Shown here: in pieces, positions 51,554 through 58,154 of the stretch
Numbering within the stretch: the stretch's first letter is position 1
Layout: the number at the start of each line of letters is the position of its first letter
From: Candidatus Altimarinota bacterium
GTDB lineage: Bacteria; Patescibacteriota; Gracilibacteria; UBA1369; UM-FILTER-53-11
Length of the DNA stretch: 64,000 nt
Direction: 5' to 3'
Assembly (NCBI GenBank): GCA_018061065.1
Contig: JAGOUV010000001.1
Span: 114,217-178,216, forward strand
Made by a program: the position numbers and the translations under genes
The notes under the pieces: generated by a model
What the model saw: the letters and a program-made list of their open reading frames with translations, nothing else
What the model was told of the DNA's origin: nothing
The model's database searches: none

Positions 51554-51787
51554 ATGGACGAGCTTCTCAACAATCAACTCAATCAAGATATTATTTTGAT
51601 GCTTGCGCTCTCTCAGTTTATGGCACAGGCAGAAAAGCGTGCGTGGGTCGAGTTACTTGAAGATATGACGGACGAAGAAAAGAATATCCTTAAAAATAAT
51701 TTACAGCAGGCACTTGATAATGAATTGGTTTTTGAGAAAGGTGTCGCGGAGAATTTTGTTGAAGAACTTGCTAGTCTGCCAGTATAA
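51554..51787 (+). CDS. Small acidic helical protein, 77 aa
   Basis: Unrecognised. Entirely helical by pattern (MDELLNNQLNQDIILMLALSQFMAQAEKRAWVE), acidic, without a signal peptide. It starts 11 bases after the upstream 505-residue gene, so the two probably form one transcript and may interact. The last 17 bases overlap the end of nadB on the other strand. Confidence 0.65.
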   Translation: MDELLNNQLNQDIILMLALSQFMAQAEKRAWVELLEDMTDEEKNILKNNLQQALDNELVFEKGVAENFVEELASLPV

Positions 51788-53264
51788 AGTGACAACCAAG
51801 ACTCGTTTTACGTTGTAAGGCTGCTTTTGTGATGGTTTGTGCTGTCATGAGAAGATTAAGTAATTCTCGCACCGTCGGATTGAATTGTGGCAATGTACTG
51901 ACGCTTTTCTGCAGTGTTTCAATTTTCTGTAGTGCATTTTTTAATTCATGTGGACGACGAACAATACCGACCTCTTGCCACATTGTTTTCTTTAGCTGGG
52001 TTCTGATACGCGTGCATTGTGATACCTGTTTTTTTGAGAGGGGAGTGAAGCGCGGAATGGTGATACCCAGAAGTTTCTTTTTTGTCGCGTGCGAACGTGT
52101 GGTGATTTTTTCTACAATGCGATTTGAAAATACGAGTGCTTCCAATAGTGAGTTACTCGCCAGACGATTAGCACCTTGTACGCCGGTGTAGGCAACTTCT
52201 CCATAAGCAAAAAGGTTTTTTACTTTTGTCTGACCATATAAATCAACTTTTACTCCGCCACACATATAGTGCGCTGCGGGTGTAATGGGAATCAGATCTT
52301 TTCCGAAATGATATCCATAGTGAAGAAGTTTTGATGAAATCTGAGGAAAGCGTGTCGCCAATTCTTTTTCTCCGTGATGGCGCATGTCCAAATACATAGG
52401 TCCCTTTTTAAGTTCATTGAAAATCGACTGACTCACAATGTCTCGTGGTGCGAGCTCTAGTCGCTTATCATAGCGGTGCATAAAACGCTCTCCTTTTGCA
52501 TCACAGAGATATGCACCCTCCCCACGAACAGCTTCTGAAATTAAAAAACGTGGTTTGCCTTTAAAATAAAATGCAGTCGGGTGAAACTGTACGAATTCCA
52601 TGTCATATAACTGTGCACCTGCGCGCTGTGCCATAGCATACCCGTCGCCTGTAGAAATAACTGGGTTTGTCGTGTGAGAATAGGTCTGCCCAGCACCGCC
52701 AGTTGCTAAAATAACCGCCTCGGCCTGCATGACATGGTAGCGTCCTTCTGCAAAAATAATAACTCCCTTACATACATTTTTTTCGACGAGTAACTCGTGG
52801 GCAAAGGTGTGTTCAAACAAGCTTATATTTTTATGGTTTCTGACCTGGTGCACCAGTACGCTTTCAATTGCCTTGCCCGTATAGTCTGAGACAAAAGCAA
52901 TTCTGCGCGCGCGATGCCCCCCTTCACGCGTCAGTAATAATGCACCATCATGTGTCGCAAACGGCACGCCTAACTCAGCGAGTCGTTCTACTGCTTCTTT
53001 ACTGTGGGCAACCATATAGTGCACTGCACTTTTTTTATTGTGATAACTTCCTGCAATTAACGTATCTTCTACGTGTGCTTCCACCGTGTCGCTTTCTGCT
53101 AAAACTGCCGCAATTCCTCCCTGTGCATAGTTAGTTGCCGTAGTCGCCAGTTTTTTCTTTGTGATAATTGCCACATGCGCTCCTCTATCTGCCAGGCGCA
53201 AGGCGCTATTGAGTCCTGCTATTCCTGATCCTATAACCACCGCATCGTAATGGTTTTTGTACAT
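51771..53264 (-). CDS. nadB: L-aspartate oxidase
   Basis: NadB (497 aa), an FAD enzyme producing iminoaspartate for quinolinate and NAD synthesis. It has the FAD motif VVIGSGIAGLNSALRLADRG, the TNYAQGGIAAVL block, VEDTLIAGSYHNK, HPTAF, the RGEGAYL segment and CGGVKVDLYGQTKVKNLFAYGEVAYTGVQGANRLASNSLLE. The length and these blocks separate it from fumarate reductase. NadA and NadC are not in the window. A TATACT box at 53277-53272 lies inside the end of the upstream aroA-aroK gene, 7 bases before its ATG, so it may have its own nearly leaderless transcript besides read-through. Confidence 0.93.
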   Translation of the reverse strand: MYKNHYDAVVIGSGIAGLNSALRLADRGAHVAIITKKKLATTATNYAQGGIAAVLAESDTVEAHVEDTLIAGSYHNKKSAVHYMVAHSKEAVERLAELGVPFATHDGALLLTREGGHRARRIAFVSDYTGKAIESVLVHQVRNHKNISLFEHTFAHELLVEKNVCKGVIIFAEGRYHVMQAEAVILATGGAGQTYSHTTNPVISTGDGYAMAQRAGAQLYDMEFVQFHPTAFYFKGKPRFLISEAVRGEGAYLCDAKGERFMHRYDKRLELAPRDIVSQSIFNELKKGPMYLDMRHHGEKELATRFPQISSKLLHYGYHFGKDLIPITPAAHYMCGGVKVDLYGQTKVKNLFAYGEVAYTGVQGANRLASNSLLEALVFSNRIVEKITTRSHATKKKLLGITIPRFTPLSKKQVSQCTRIRTQLKKTMWQEVGIVRRPHELKNALQKIETLQKSVSTLPQFNPTVRELLNLLMTAQTITKAALQRKTSLGCHFILAD

Positions 53265-53267
53265 GGG

Positions 53268-54992
53268 TTACAGTATACCCCAGTTTTGTGTAATCGCTAT
53301 TAAACTACGCATTTTTCTGCCCATTTGCTTGTCTGAAACCGGTAAACGCGCATCAGCTGTCTGTTCATAATAAGGGAGACGTTGCTTGAAAATAGCGGGC
53401 AACTCGTTGATTACATTTTGATGTTGAGTAAGTGAAGGTCGCTCGGTGTCTTTTTGTAGACGTTTTTTTAGAATATCGATTGTGCAATGAAGGAAGATAA
53501 TCCGTCCATTTTTCTTTAACTCGCTCACATTGCGTTCATCCATTATGACGCCGCCGCCTGTTGAGATCACAGCATTTTTTTTGTAACTTAGTTTTCTCAC
53601 CACACTTCGTTCAATTGCTCGGAATGCAGGCCACCCTTTTTCACGCACAAAGTCCGCAATCGGTTGTTTAATTTTTTTGCAAATTTCTTCGTCGGTATCA
53701 ATAAAAGTCCGTTTCAGTTTTTTGGCGAGTCGTTTTCCTAGAAAAGATTTTCCGCTTCCACGCATTCCCGTAAGAACAATATTTTGCTCTGCAATTTTAC
53801 AACGTACTTTTCCTAAATCTTTCCAGAACTGCGGGTACGTTTTAGAAACACATTCCGGATTCATAATAGTTATATGGGGAAGGATTGTTTGAATCATGCC
53901 AAAACACATAGCAATACGGTGATCGTTGTACGTCTGTATTTTTGCCTTTTTAAAGCCACTTTTTTGGCCTATCACGGTAATGCCATCCGGGTGTTCTTTA
54001 ATTTTCACTCCGATTTTTGTTAGCTCTGTTGCAAGAGCATGAAGACGATCGGATTCTTTTACGCGCAAATTATGCAGACCAATAAATTTCCATTCGCCTG
54101 GAATCAGCGCACTCAAAACAATAAGTGTCATTGCTCCATCGGGAAAATCACGCGCATCAATTGTCAGTTTCTTTTCTTTAGAAGAACATATTTTTTGCGC
54201 CCATATTTTTACTGCACTATCCGGCTGAAGCGTATTGTTTGAAACATTGGTAATCTCGAGTGAGTATCCTGTCAGTGCACTGAGTCCCCAGAAGTAGGTA
54301 GCCGCTGAAGCATCGCCCTCAATATATATATCGTTAGTATGGTAGCCATTTGTGGTTACGGCAAATGAGGTATAACCCGTGCGTTTTACTTGCGCGCCAC
54401 ACTGCTTCATGAGTTCAATAGTCATGTCGATATATGGCTTAGAAACAAGTTTACCGCGCACCTTAATGGTGATTGTTTTTTTGCTCGCACCTGCAGACAT
54501 AAGTAACGCCGAGAGATACTGACTGCTCGTTTCACCGCGCACACTCGAATTCGTTTTAGTGAATGGCCCATGGACACGCAGTGGCACGTATCCTTCTTTT
54601 TTTTGATAAGTAATAGTCGCGCCGAGATTACGCAGTGCATCTACCAAATCACCTATTGGACGCTCTCTCATGCGCGCATCACCATCAATGACATATTCAT
54701 TTTTTTGGCTCGCCAGAAGTGCAGTTAAAAATCTCACCGTAGTTCCCGAGTTTCCACAAAAGAGTGCGTTTTTAGTTTGATTGTACTGCTGTGGCGATAC
54801 GACCGTGAGTGTGTTCTTTTTTTTAATTATCTTTACACCTAATTCTTTTAGGGCTTTCTGCATTACCTTCGTGTCGTCGCTTTCGAGCCCGTTATGAATA
54901 ATTGTTTTTCCTGGAGTTGCAGCAGCAATGAGAAGCGCTCGATTTGTCATGCTTTTTGAGCCCGGTACGGTAAAGGTATTAAGCAATGACAT
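53268..54992 (-). CDS. aroA-aroK: Fused EPSP synthase-shikimate kinase
   Basis: A 574-residue fusion. Residues 1-395 are 3-phosphoshikimate 1-carboxyvinyltransferase: VPGSKSMTNRALL, CGNSGTTVRFL, RMRERPIGDLVDAL, the DFPDGAM catalytic Asp region, LRVKESDRL and NDHRIAMCF. Residues 402-574 are shikimate kinase: Walker A GMRGSGKS (409-416), IDTDEEI, STGGGVI and lid ERPSL. SK makes shikimate-3-phosphate and EPSPS uses it, so the fusion joins consecutive steps. The gene overlaps aroB by 14 bases. The order aroB-aroA-aroK is the same as in the fungal AROM protein. Under the aro attenuator. Confidence 0.95.
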   Translation of the reverse strand: MSLLNTFTVPGSKSMTNRALLIAAATPGKTIIHNGLESDDTKVMQKALKELGVKIIKKKNTLTVVSPQQYNQTKNALFCGNSGTTVRFLTALLASQKNEYVIDGDARMRERPIGDLVDALRNLGATITYQKKEGYVPLRVHGPFTKTNSSVRGETSSQYLSALLMSAGASKKTITIKVRGKLVSKPYIDMTIELMKQCGAQVKRTGYTSFAVTTNGYHTNDIYIEGDASAATYFWGLSALTGYSLEITNVSNNTLQPDSAVKIWAQKICSSKEKKLTIDARDFPDGAMTLIVLSALIPGEWKFIGLHNLRVKESDRLHALATELTKIGVKIKEHPDGITVIGQKSGFKKAKIQTYNDHRIAMCFGMIQTILPHITIMNPECVSKTYPQFWKDLGKVRCKIAEQNIVLTGMRGSGKSFLGKRLAKKLKRTFIDTDEEICKKIKQPIADFVREKGWPAFRAIERSVVRKLSYKKNAVISTGGGVIMDERNVSELKKNGRIIFLHCTIDILKKRLQKDTERPSLTQHQNVINELPAIFKQRLPYYEQTADARLPVSDKQMGRKMRSLIAITQNWGIL

Positions 54993-56028
54993 AGGGAACT
55001 ATTTTTGCTGCGCCGATTCTCGTAGCGAGCGCAAAATAAACTTTATTGCCCACACGTTTTTTATCTTTCATCATTGCGGATTTGAGACGTTGATTGCTTA
55101 TGGTAGATGGAAAGGCGGTGGGAAGATTATATCGTTTAAGAAGTTCTTTTATCCGTTGAGCATCTTTTTCTTTTAGCAGCTTCTTGCCTATTGCTAAACG
55201 ATTTTCCGCTACCATGCCAATCGCAACAGCTTCTCCGTGCGGAATTGAAAAATCACTGAGCAACTCAACTGCATGTCCTACGGTGTGTCCATAATTCACC
55301 AGCATACGAGAAGTTCCTTTTTTTGTAACTTTCGAAAGTGACTCAAGTGGATCTTTTCCCACTATTTTCATTTTAATCTGTGCGCTTTTTTTCAAAACTT
55401 TTACTAGTATTTCTCTGCGTCGCGCCAAAATTACACTCGCATTTTTTTCTAAGAACGTAAAAAATACCTTATCCGCAATAATCGCGTGTTTAATAATTTC
55501 AGCGAATCCCATACGATACTGTCGGTCAGAGAGACCACTCAAAACACGGGGATCCATCACCACATGAGATGCAGTATAGAAACTGCCCAAAAGGTTTTTT
55601 CCATCTTCCAAATCAACGCCAGTTTTGCCACCCAGACTTGAGTCGGCCATTGCTAAGACAGTCGTGGGAATGGCAATGTATCTAAGCCCGCGCATATAGA
55701 TTGAGGCGAGAAATCCTGCCATGTCACCCACGATGCCGCCACCGATACCAATGACGACACCGTCTCTTTGCAGTCCCGCTTTCACCAACTGCTTGGCCCA
55801 TTGTTCGATAGTGGCAAGACGTTTGATCGACTCACTCGCTTTGCACTCAATGACGGTGTACGGAATGTGCGCTTGTTTTAGTCCTTTAGTAATTTCTTGA
55901 GCATAGTTCGCCACGGAGCTGTCCGCAATAATCGCCACATGCGACGACTTTATTTTGCAGCGCGTCGCAAGTTTTGAGAGTATGTCCGTTTCAACAATGA
56001 TCGTCGATGGTGTGGGAGATTTAGGCAT
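54979..56028 (-). CDS. aroB: 3-dehydroquinate synthase
   Basis: AroB (349 aa) cyclises DAHP to 3-dehydroquinate with NAD and a divalent metal. The NAD-binding motif is VVIGIGGGIVGDMAGFLAS; other blocks are RGLRYIAIPTTVLAMADSSLGGKTGVD, the KHAIIADK segment, and metal ligands in NYGHTVGHAVE and HGEAVAIGMV. It starts 8 bases after aroF and overlaps aroA-aroK by 14. The next steps, AroD and AroE, are not in the window. Confidence 0.96.
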   Translation of the reverse strand: MPKSPTPSTIIVETDILSKLATRCKIKSSHVAIIADSSVANYAQEITKGLKQAHIPYTVIECKASESIKRLATIEQWAKQLVKAGLQRDGVVIGIGGGIVGDMAGFLASIYMRGLRYIAIPTTVLAMADSSLGGKTGVDLEDGKNLLGSFYTASHVVMDPRVLSGLSDRQYRMGFAEIIKHAIIADKVFFTFLEKNASVILARRREILVKVLKKSAQIKMKIVGKDPLESLSKVTKKGTSRMLVNYGHTVGHAVELLSDFSIPHGEAVAIGMVAENRLAIGKKLLKEKDAQRIKELLKRYNLPTAFPSTISNQRLKSAMMKDKKRVGNKVYFALATRIGAAKIVPYVIA

Positions 56029-56036
56029 GGTGCGTG

Positions 56037-57053
56037 TTACATTTTCTTTTTCATCGCAACAACGATAGGACGAATGTCATCCATCAGCGCCTCAAACTGT
56101 TCTAGATTCAGCGCTTGATCGGCATCAGACATTGCTACCGCAGGATTTGGATGAACCTCAATCATAATACCATCTGCGCCTGCCGCTATAGCTGCGCGAG
56201 ACATAGGGGGAATCAACTTTGGCTTGCCCGTGCCATGACTTGGATCGACGATAATCGGCAGGTGAGAAAGTTCATTGATAATCGGAACCGTCGCGATACA
56301 GAGCGTGTTGCGCGTCTCATCTTCGAACGTTCTAATGCCGCGTTCACACAGAACCACATTCTGATTTCCCTGTGCCAGGATGTACTCCGCAGCAAGCAAG
56401 AATTCTTTAATGGTCGCCGAGAGTCCACGTTTCAAAAGCACGGGTTTATTGGCCTTTCCCACTTCTTTAAGTAAGTCAAAATTCTGCATGTTGCGTGCAC
56501 CAATCTGCAACATATCAATATGCTGAGCCATGAAATCAACATCGCGCACATCCATGATTTCCGAGACGCTTACCATACCGTGAGCCTTTGCAGCTTTCTC
56601 AAGCATCAACACTGCGGGACGACCGTGTCCTTGAAATGCGTATGGAGCGGTGCGAGGTTTGAATGCACCTCCACGTAGAATCATCGAACCAGCTGCTTTT
56701 GCGCCGCGTGCAGCCATATCCATCTGCTCTTCATTTTCCACAGAACAAGGTCCTGCCATCACTGCAATCGTCTGACCGCCGATTTCAACATCGCGAATTT
56801 TAACAACGGTCTTTTCGAATTTTGTCTCACGGCTCGCCAGTTTATATGGACGCAACACGGGCATGACATTTGAAACGCCCGGCAAGCTCGCCATGTGGCG
56901 TTCATCAATCATTCGTTCGTCTCCGATCACCGCGATCACCGTGCGCTCAGTGCCAATCAGTGGCACGGGCTTGAGCCCTTCGTAGCGTGTGATCTCAGTA
57001 AGTACGCGGTCAATATGTTCCTGCGGCGCATGCCGCTGCATAACGATAATCAT
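56037..57053 (-). CDS. aroF: 3-deoxy-7-phosphoheptulonate (DAHP) synthase with N-terminal ferredoxin-like domain
   Basis: DAHP synthase (338 aa), condensing PEP and erythrose-4-P. Residues 1-75 form the ferredoxin-like domain seen in the Thermotoga-type enzyme, where it mediates tyrosine feedback, so protein-level feedback is likely in addition to the attenuator. The catalytic barrel has AGPCSVE, RGGAFKPRTAPYAFQG, IGARNMQNF, KPVLLKRG, ERGIRTFE and DPSHGTGK. ATG 57053 gives the normal N-terminus MIIVMQRHAP. Upstream there is a 294-base leader with an attenuator and no separate clear promoter, so expression depends on read-through. Confidence 0.97.
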   Translation of the reverse strand: MIIVMQRHAPQEHIDRVLTEITRYEGLKPVPLIGTERTVIAVIGDERMIDERHMASLPGVSNVMPVLRPYKLASRETKFEKTVVKIRDVEIGGQTIAVMAGPCSVENEEQMDMAARGAKAAGSMILRGGAFKPRTAPYAFQGHGRPAVLMLEKAAKAHGMVSVSEIMDVRDVDFMAQHIDMLQIGARNMQNFDLLKEVGKANKPVLLKRGLSATIKEFLLAAEYILAQGNQNVVLCERGIRTFEDETRNTLCIATVPIINELSHLPIIVDPSHGTGKPKLIPPMSRAAIAAGADGIMIEVHPNPAVAMSDADQALNLEQFEALMDDIRPIVVAMKKKM

Positions 57054-57096: not shown

Positions 57097-57204
57097 TTAG
57101 ATGCTATAAAAAGATTCCTCTGCTGAAAGCTGGCGTGGACGCCAAAGTAAGGATGCTTTGGACGCTAACTGTGCAAGGCTCGTAGATGGGGTAAGTTTCT
57201 TCAT
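57097..57204 (-). CDS. Possible 35-codon ORF in the aroF leader
   Basis: ATG at 57204-57202 opens 35 codons (starting MKKLTPSTSLAQLASKASLL) ending at TAA 57099-57097, between the attenuator terminator and aroF. It contains the GGCGT-CC-ACGCC hairpin. No Shine-Dalgarno, no known family. It could be a second leader peptide, a short gene or chance. Confidence 0.25.
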   Translation of the reverse strand: MKKLTPSTSLAQLASKASLLWRPRQLSAEESFYSI

Positions 57205-57224: not shown

Positions 57225-57259
57225 AAAAAAAAGTCCCTTGGGTATTTTACCTAAGGGAC
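57225..57259 (-). terminator. Attenuator terminator of the aroF operon
   Basis: On the minus strand the arm 57259-57248 (GTCCCTTAGGTA) pairs with 57244-57233 (TACCCAAGGGAC) with 11 of 12 positions matched, loop AAA, followed by eight T (57232-57225). It lies between the promoter and aroF, 28 bases beyond the leader stop codon, so it ends transcription before the operon unless antitermination occurs. Confidence 0.88.
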
Positions 57260-57294
57260 ATATAGTTACGTACGTGCGTATGTCGCCTCAGGTA
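57248..57294 (-). promoter_or_regulatory. Antiterminator of the aroF operon
   Basis: 57294-57279 (UACCUGAGG, bulged C, GACAUA) pairs with 57262-57248 (UAUGUC, CCUUAGGUA): 9 plus 6 pairs, including one G-U. It shares 57259-57248 with the terminator, so the two exclude each other. Its 5' arm contains the leader stop codon (57290-57288) and would be covered by a ribosome finishing the leader. A small alternative hairpin CCUC/GAGG (57302-57299/57289-57286) could hold that arm when no ribosome is present. Confidence 0.8.
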
Positions 57295-57347
57295 TTTAGA
57301 GGAAAGTAATAAAATGCCCAGAACTGAAATGACTTTGAAGCGAACAT
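57288..57347 (-). CDS. Aromatic-rich attenuator leader peptide (19 aa)
   Basis: ATG 57347-57345 to TGA 57290-57288 encodes MFASKSFQFWAFYYFPLNT. Five Phe, two Tyr and one Trp occupy 8 of 19 positions, clustered at residues 9-15 (FWAFYYF). The frame starts one base after the predicted transcription start, so no Shine-Dalgarno can exist. Ribosome slowing at residues 10-14 would leave the antiterminator arm (from 57294) free, while completion to the stop codon would cover it. By analogy with pheL and trpL this is a regulatory peptide, and its composition fits all three products of the shikimate pathway. Confidence 0.85.
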   Translation of the reverse strand: MFASKSFQFWAFYYFPLNT

Positions 57348-57354
57348 TACTGCG

Positions 57355-57382
57355 ATTATACTAACGCTACTTAAAAAGTCAA
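57355..57382 (-). promoter_or_regulatory. Promoter of the aroF operon leader, overlapping the tatD -10
   Basis: On the minus strand TTGACT (57382-57377), a 16-base spacer and TATAAT (57360-57355), with +1 near 57348. On the plus strand TATACT (57357-57362) overlaps it and can serve tatD (leader about 21 bases). Confidence 0.8.
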
Positions 57383-57389
57383 CATTACT

Positions 57390-58154
57390 ATGCTCATCGA
57401 CTGTCATTCACATCTTCATGTTCCCGAATTCGAGACCGATCAAGCCGCGGTTATAGAACGTGCACGCGCTGGAGGAATTACTCGTTTTATAAATGTTGGT
57501 TTTGATATTGAAGGCAATTTTAAGGCTTTGGCATTGGCAAAAAAGCACGATGACTTTTATTCTACTATGGGAGTTCATCCTCATTTGGCAAGTGATTGGA
57601 ATGAAGAAATTGGAGAGCGTATCGCTCGAGCAGTACAGTCAGAACCCAAGATAGTAGCGTTAGGTGAAATGGGGTTAGATTACTTTAAAAATTTCCAACC
57701 AAAGGAAGTTCAACAACATGCGTTCCGCGCACAACTCCAACTTGCGAGAAAATTTAATCTTCCCGTGATCATTCACTGCCGCGATGCGTTTGAAGATGTT
57801 TTTGAAATCCTAGAACAAGAAAAAAATGAGCGCGTCTTGCTGCACTGCTTCACCGGTACACGTGCTCAAGCACAGATTGCTTTTGATCGAGGTTACTATA
57901 TCGCTTTTACCGGAATTCTCACCTATCCCTCGGCACAGGAGCTCCAGGAAGTTGCGCGCATGGCACCCGCAGATAAAATTGTCATTGAGACCGACTGTCC
58001 CTACCTCGCGCCTCAGAGTAAGCGCGGTCAGCGTAACGAACCATCCTTTTTGCCCGAGGTTGCTGAAAAGCTTGCACAGTTGCGCGGCATGCCTCTTGCT
58101 CAATTAGAAGACCAACTCGTAATGAACACAAAGCAGCTTTTCCGCATTGAATAA
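57390..58154 (+). CDS. tatD: TatD-family metal-dependent hydrolase/DNase
   Basis: A 254-residue TatD-type amidohydrolase with a two-metal site: DCHSHLH (residues 3-9), LGEMGLDYF with the metal Glu, VIIHCRDAFED, LLHCFTG and ETDCPYLAP near the C-terminus. Family members are 3'-5' exonucleases or deacylases acting on damaged DNA or D-amino-acid substrates; the exact role is uncertain. It is divergent from the aro leader, sharing an overlapping -10. The following gene has its own promoter. Confidence 0.93.
   Translation: MLIDCHSHLHVPEFETDQAAVIERARAGGITRFINVGFDIEGNFKALALAKKHDDFYSTMGVHPHLASDWNEEIGERIARAVQSEPKIVALGEMGLDYFKNFQPKEVQQHAFRAQLQLARKFNLPVIIHCRDAFEDVFEILEQEKNERVLLHCFTGTRAQAQIAFDRGYYIAFTGILTYPSAQELQEVARMAPADKIVIETDCPYLAPQSKRGQRNEPSFLPEVAEKLAQLRGMPLAQLEDQLVMNTKQLFRIE

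Follow-up and report, generated by a model that had tools for sequence, protein, structure and literature searches.

The aromatic operon on the minus strand of the analysed stretch of DNA (64,000 nt, hereafter the window) is preceded by a short element that very probably (at about 0.93) acts as a ribosome-mediated transcription attenuator, matching operon expression to how fully tRNA-Phe, tRNA-Tyr and possibly tRNA-Trp are charged. The parts of the element, their geometry, the alternative folds and their conservation can be read from the DNA sequence itself. The leader region consists of the following features:

57355-57382, minus strand: leader promoter TTGACT-16-TATAAT (-35 box TTGACT at 57382-57377, -10 box TATAAT at 57360-57355).
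57288-57347, minus strand: frame of the leader peptide MFASKSFQFWAFYYFPLNT, 19 codons, ATG at 57347, TGA at 57290-57288, read from the sequence.
57336-57346, minus strand: segment 1, which could form the 5' arm of a 1:2 (anti-antiterminator) hairpin with its partner at 57290-57281, from the minimum-energy fold of the full leader.
57279-57294, minus strand: segment 2, antiterminator 5' arm across the leader stop codon, from the fold and from pairing in relatives.
57248-57262, minus strand: segment 3, 3' arm of the antiterminator, which shares bases with the 5' arm of the terminator, from the fold and from pairing in relatives.
57225-57259, minus strand: intrinsic terminator, hairpin at 57259-57233 with 11/12 pairs (one mismatch), loop AAA and 8 T, from sequence and fold.

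An earlier note on this DNA had described the promoter, a 19-codon frame rich in Phe, Tyr and Trp, an antiterminator of 9+6 pairs with its 5' arm over the leader stop codon, and a terminator sharing an arm with it; all four were recovered as described. The promoter ranks first among 16 promoter-like sites in the 12 kb scanned, matching at 11 of 12 positions. The frame, read base for base on the minus strand, contains eight aromatic codons among its 19 (5 F, 2 Y, 1 W). Judged from the promoter position, its ATG lies 7 nt past the -10 box, suggesting that the leader transcript is probably leaderless or near-leaderless, with its 5' end at or beside the ATG. Some members of the phylum use genetic code 25, in which TGA is read as Gly and the leader stop would be lost. 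This code was rejected because TGA terminates 9 of the 45 ORFs of at least 200 aa and is a genuine stop in the source genome. On the other strand, a divergent TatD-type nuclease gene starts at 57390 (plus strand), so that the -35 box of the leader is 8 nt from the TatD start codon; a promoter-like site for this gene, with 9/12 matches at 57335-57362, would overlap both the leader frame and its promoter.

The antiterminator (9+6 pairs with one bulged C) has a folding energy of -19.3 kcal/mol and a z-score of -4.7 against shuffles, and the terminator stretch has -17 kcal/mol and a z-score of -4.1. The two hairpins share one arm and are mutually exclusive. Both states were folded, as the earlier note had proposed. 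A stretch with segments 2, 3 and 4 all available adopts the antiterminator as its most stable fold (-20.4 kcal/mol, z -3.4), and removal of the segment 2 arm switches it to the terminator. The whole ribosome-free leader folds at minimum energy as the 1:2 hairpin plus the terminator, which would be the expected default off state. The 1:2 hairpin was nevertheless rejected as a general component, since only 10 of 51 loci in relatives show one, weakly, and the pairing test for the window gave p 0.16.

From these features we infer a scheme in which transcription would begin at or beside the ATG and the leader would be translated by a ribosome following the advancing polymerase, with Phe, Tyr and possibly Trp as the presumed effective amino acids. 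When aromatic tRNA is scarce, the ribosome would stall at codons 9-15 (FWAFYYF), with its front edge roughly where segment 2 begins; segments 2 and 3 would then pair, no terminator would form, and aroF-aroB-aroAK-nadB would be transcribed. When the supply is good, the ribosome would reach the TGA and cover segment 2, leaving segment 3 to pair with segment 4, and transcription in the cell would stop at the T run.

At E 1e-60, 58 of the 89 genomes of the order and 94 of the 353 of the class contain a relative of the DAHP synthase, as do 43 of 380 genomes of a phylum sample at E 0.001, where weak matches are counted; the genomes listed from that sample measure about 0.6-2.0 Mb. The upstream scan covered 88 aroF loci, the window among them. 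The leader frame, whose loss from related genomes had been named beforehand as a possible refutation, is kept: frames with at least six aromatic codons in ten occur upstream of aroF at 57 of the 88 loci, compared with one on the reverse strand and a mean of 1.4 (maximum 4) in dinucleotide shuffles. Other residue sets on the real strand gave up to 29 (ILV), which shows that frames with other biases occur, but far under the count for FYW. Examples from the nearest relatives are, nearest first, MRKHSFNFWAYFYPLA, MTAQKWGFEYFYFPSP and MATGVWNNFYFYFFPS, and from farther ones MNTHNPAQTYFGFYFYWNLTGK and MKINNFYYFGFYFEAR; aromatic leaders also occur at loci outside the class (families f22, f26, f29 and f66). 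The residue counts in 47 leaders are F 47, Y 46 and W 28. About one third of the aroF upstream regions have no detected leader, and some of these belong to second aroF copies or to an aroF behind another gene. Some relatives carry a second copy of the DAHP synthase gene (L100, L104, L106, L107, L110 and L111), about 4 kb away from trpE and probably inside the trp operon. In a midpoint-rooted FastTree phylogeny of aroF, the order of the window falls mostly into one clade, through which the attenuators are scattered, and attenuators are also present in several separate clades of the phylum. Among IMG/VR viral contigs, no relative of the window aroF was found.

At 51 loci, two of them near-identical, a terminator-like hairpin occurs no more than 110 nt downstream of an aromatic frame. 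The best pairing between the terminator 5' arm and the leader-stop region has p <0.05 against shuffled sequence at 33 of these 51; Fisher's combined p for the antiterminator pairing is about 1e-31, which is overstated because the relatives are not independent. The stems are CCUGAGG/CCUUAGG in the window, GAGGG/CCCUC in members of its family, GCGG/CCGC in family f10 and GCAUGAGG/CCUCAUGC in other families of the order. Compared clade by clade, with no per-pair covariation count, the stem sequence changes while the predicted pairing is kept, so differing stems retain the same mutually exclusive pairing logic. The geometry of stalling was calculated for 47 loci after four had been dropped (one duplicate, three poorly resolved), with the ribosome front edge assumed to be 12 nt beyond the A site. 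At 43 of the 47 loci, 9-20 nt separate the antiterminator arm from the closest aromatic codon upstream (median 14), which is near the spacing between A site and front edge, and a ribosome at the leader stop would overlie 4 nt or more of the arm at all 47 (median 15). In the window, aromatic codons stand 11, 14, 17, 20, 26, 29 and 35 nt from the arm. This codon spacing fits ribosome stalling, as judged from geometry alone, and together with the relatives and the exclusive folds it supports, at the level of sequence, the earlier proposal that stalling frees the antiterminator and that arrival at the stop blocks it. A promoter with at least 10/12 matches precedes the leader at 30 of the 47 loci; among these 30, the -10 box and the start codon are 5-11 nt apart in 19 (window included) and 20-30 nt apart in eight. 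Given the usual start-site spacing, transcripts of the 5-11 nt group would be leaderless or nearly so.

The same data bear on other explanations of the element. Aromatic-rich nascent chains can arrest ribosomes, and the motifs FWA and FYF recur in the leaders, as would be expected if the leader were a sequence-specific arrest peptide, acting like TnaC through nascent chain and ligand and not through hungry codons. However, the leaders vary widely in order, length and ending, what they have in common is composition and position and not a motif, and the aromatic codons are spread over 9-35 nt from the arm, as in hungry-codon control; we therefore regard arrest as improbable. Control of the terminator by a T-box, a riboswitch or a protein-binding leader, kinds of leader that also govern aromatic operons elsewhere, is less probable again. 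At the gathering threshold, Rfam returned no known leader, riboswitch or T-box in the leader region; at a permissive threshold there was no T-box match, and the Trp, Phe and other curated amino-acid leader families were unmatched, the best permissive matches lying far below their gathering scores. In addition, the structure is centred on the stop codon and is too short for a T-box. That the hairpin and the short frame have no connection with amino-acid sensing, the former serving as a constitutive terminator for a small RNA encoded upstream or the latter being a chance aromatic frame, is the least credible explanation, in view of the excess of leader frames over shuffles and the antiterminator at the stop codon in most loci. 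An attenuator responding to tRNA charging thus remains the preferred reading.

The genes behind the leader are the following:

56037-57053, minus strand: aroF, DAHP synthase of the PRK08673 / TIGR01361 type (NCBIfam NF006421, E 1.3e-142).
54979-56028, minus strand: aroB, 3-dehydroquinate synthase (TIGR01357, above cut-off).
53268-54992, minus strand: aroA-aroK fusion, EPSP synthase plus shikimate kinase (TIGR01356, above cut-off, residues 7-396).
51771-53264, minus strand: nadB, L-aspartate oxidase, final gene of the run (TIGR00551, above cut-off).

In the aroA-aroK fusion, the part that begins at residue 403 matches shikimate kinase models, with scores under the cut-offs of those models. Successive genes are separated by 8 nt (aroF/aroB), a 14-nt overlap (aroB/aroAK) and 3 nt (aroAK/nadB). 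The operon had been proposed as aroF-aroB-aroAK; these identities hold, and the run extends into nadB. The same genome encodes chorismate synthase (aroC), pheA followed by an apparent tyrA, and trpE-trpGD-trpC-trpB-trpA, with tyrA and the trp genes past trpE identified by eye. From this gene content, all three aromatic amino acids could plausibly be made by the source organism. Its trp operon opens with an ORF, called by eye, that resembles a TrpR-family repressor and lies directly 5' of trpE (L145, about 10651-10369, minus strand). No attenuator was seen at pheA or trpE of this genome, and no His-rich leader was found near hisG in the scanned locus. Ribosomal protein uL30 is absent in CPR bacteria, and it was missing from 60 of 60 genomes of the order and present in 13 of 14 control genomes; like the genome sizes in the phylum sample, this is compatible with membership of Patescibacteria/CPR but no proof of it.

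Comparable leaders stand at other operons and add to the case for attenuation. In five relatives from the order, a Trp-rich frame with a terminator lies directly before trpE (for example MNWWWEDHMIRRF and MIRTNTTWWNWNQKSRF), and at least some of these frames stand behind the apparent end of a TrpR-like gene. In the relative G429, two aromatic leaders in tandem precede a DAHP synthase of the short type. The positions are:

L157, 1328-1391, plus strand: Trp-rich leader before trpE.
L161, 1333-1387, plus strand: Trp-rich leader before trpE.
L171, 1305-1368, plus strand: Trp-rich leader before trpE.
L172, 1330-1384, plus strand: Trp-rich leader before trpE.
L173, 1282-1351 from the far end, minus strand: Trp-rich leader before trpE.
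L180, 373-430 and 511-622: tandem aromatic leaders of G429, each with a terminator, before the short-type DAHP synthase.

Aromatic short frames with terminators were also observed before DAHP synthase genes in Clostridia (L073, L075 and L076), Clostridium (L067 and L069), a cyanobacterium (L077) and Chloroflexi (L078), indicating that the device is not confined to Patescibacteria.

A second short frame lies between the terminator and aroF:

57097-57204, minus strand: ORF2 MKKLTPSTSLAQLASKASLLWRPRQLSAEESFYSI, 35 codons, with a similar frame in relatives.

Frames like ORF2 (14 codons or longer, with the first codon 12-45 nt past the start of the T run) were found at 24 of 30 loci compared with 3.1 in shuffles, a count limited to loci with a terminator-aroF gap of at least 90 nt and using a position criterion framed after inspection. 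They are seen at L002, L031, L033, L035, L037, L041, L050, L053, L089 and others, mostly 12-90 nt upstream of aroF, and are absent from loci with short terminator-aroF gaps. Recurring endings are SCLYRR, RYLYRR, DYSYQNN and RAYRN, often with the motif [LSA]-Y-[RQ]. The last 12 residues include an aromatic residue with R or Q after it at 15 of the 30 loci compared with 0.3 expected, an optimistic count, since the loci that had drawn attention to the motif were for the most part those used to test it. ORF2 also follows tyrA at two loci without an attenuator (L009 and L112); its occurrence there, behind tyrA and with no aromatic leader, led us to reject the view that ORF2 is everywhere a decayed second attenuator. 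The second frame of one relative is an aromatic leader too and has a terminator of its own. A dozen folds showed nothing consistent in the way of a folded aroF start region that ORF2 could open. We suggest, tentatively and with more doubt than confidence, that aroF may carry two successive leader frames, the first attenuating transcription and ORF2 adding a further control that acts on aroF translation or on Rho-dependent termination, perhaps linked to Tyr or Trp.

The small-genome bacteria considered here are commonly portrayed as relying on their hosts for amino acids. The conserved and apparently maintained attenuator, placed at the opening step of the aromatic pathway, and the Trp leaders at trp operons of some relatives would imply that part of the group makes aromatic amino acids and regulates their synthesis by its own tRNA charging. 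The attenuator would also imply tight coupling of transcription and translation in the group, and the leaders supply many probably leaderless peptides for study. The earlier note knew of no described case in Patescibacteria, and our literature search for leader-peptide attenuation in Patescibacteria/CPR, whose coverage left out most subscription journals and preprints, likewise found no report.

The closest known system is aroR-aroF of Corynebacterium glutamicum, whose attenuator responds to Phe and not to Tyr according to the account of Neshat et al. 2014 given in PMC11802643, and whose leader is also noted in PMC4046766. In both systems a DAHP synthase gene is preceded by a short leader that contains Phe and Tyr codons, and stalling in the leader allows read-through, as predicted for the window. 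In contrast to the Phe-Tyr-Phe of aroR, the window leader carries 5 F, 2 Y and 1 W and belongs to another phylum. With the trp, pheA and his attenuators of Proteobacteria (E. coli trpL and pheL), the window element shares control codons, a stop near the antiterminator arm and mutually exclusive antiterminator and terminator; unlike them, it would act at the start of the common pathway, with mixed aromatic codons, a probable leaderless start and no match to an Rfam leader. Leaderless attenuator peptides have been described for trpL of S. meliloti (PMC7298713) and ilvL of C. glutamicum (PMC11857589). As predicted for the window, the start codon there coincides with the 5' end or is 1 nt away from it; however, those 5' ends were measured, whereas that of the window is deduced from promoter position only. 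In view of these precedents, a leaderless attenuator peptide is not new in kind. The type of attenuator is thus known, and what appear to be new are a member from Patescibacteria and its spread, as traced in genome sequences, across the phylum.
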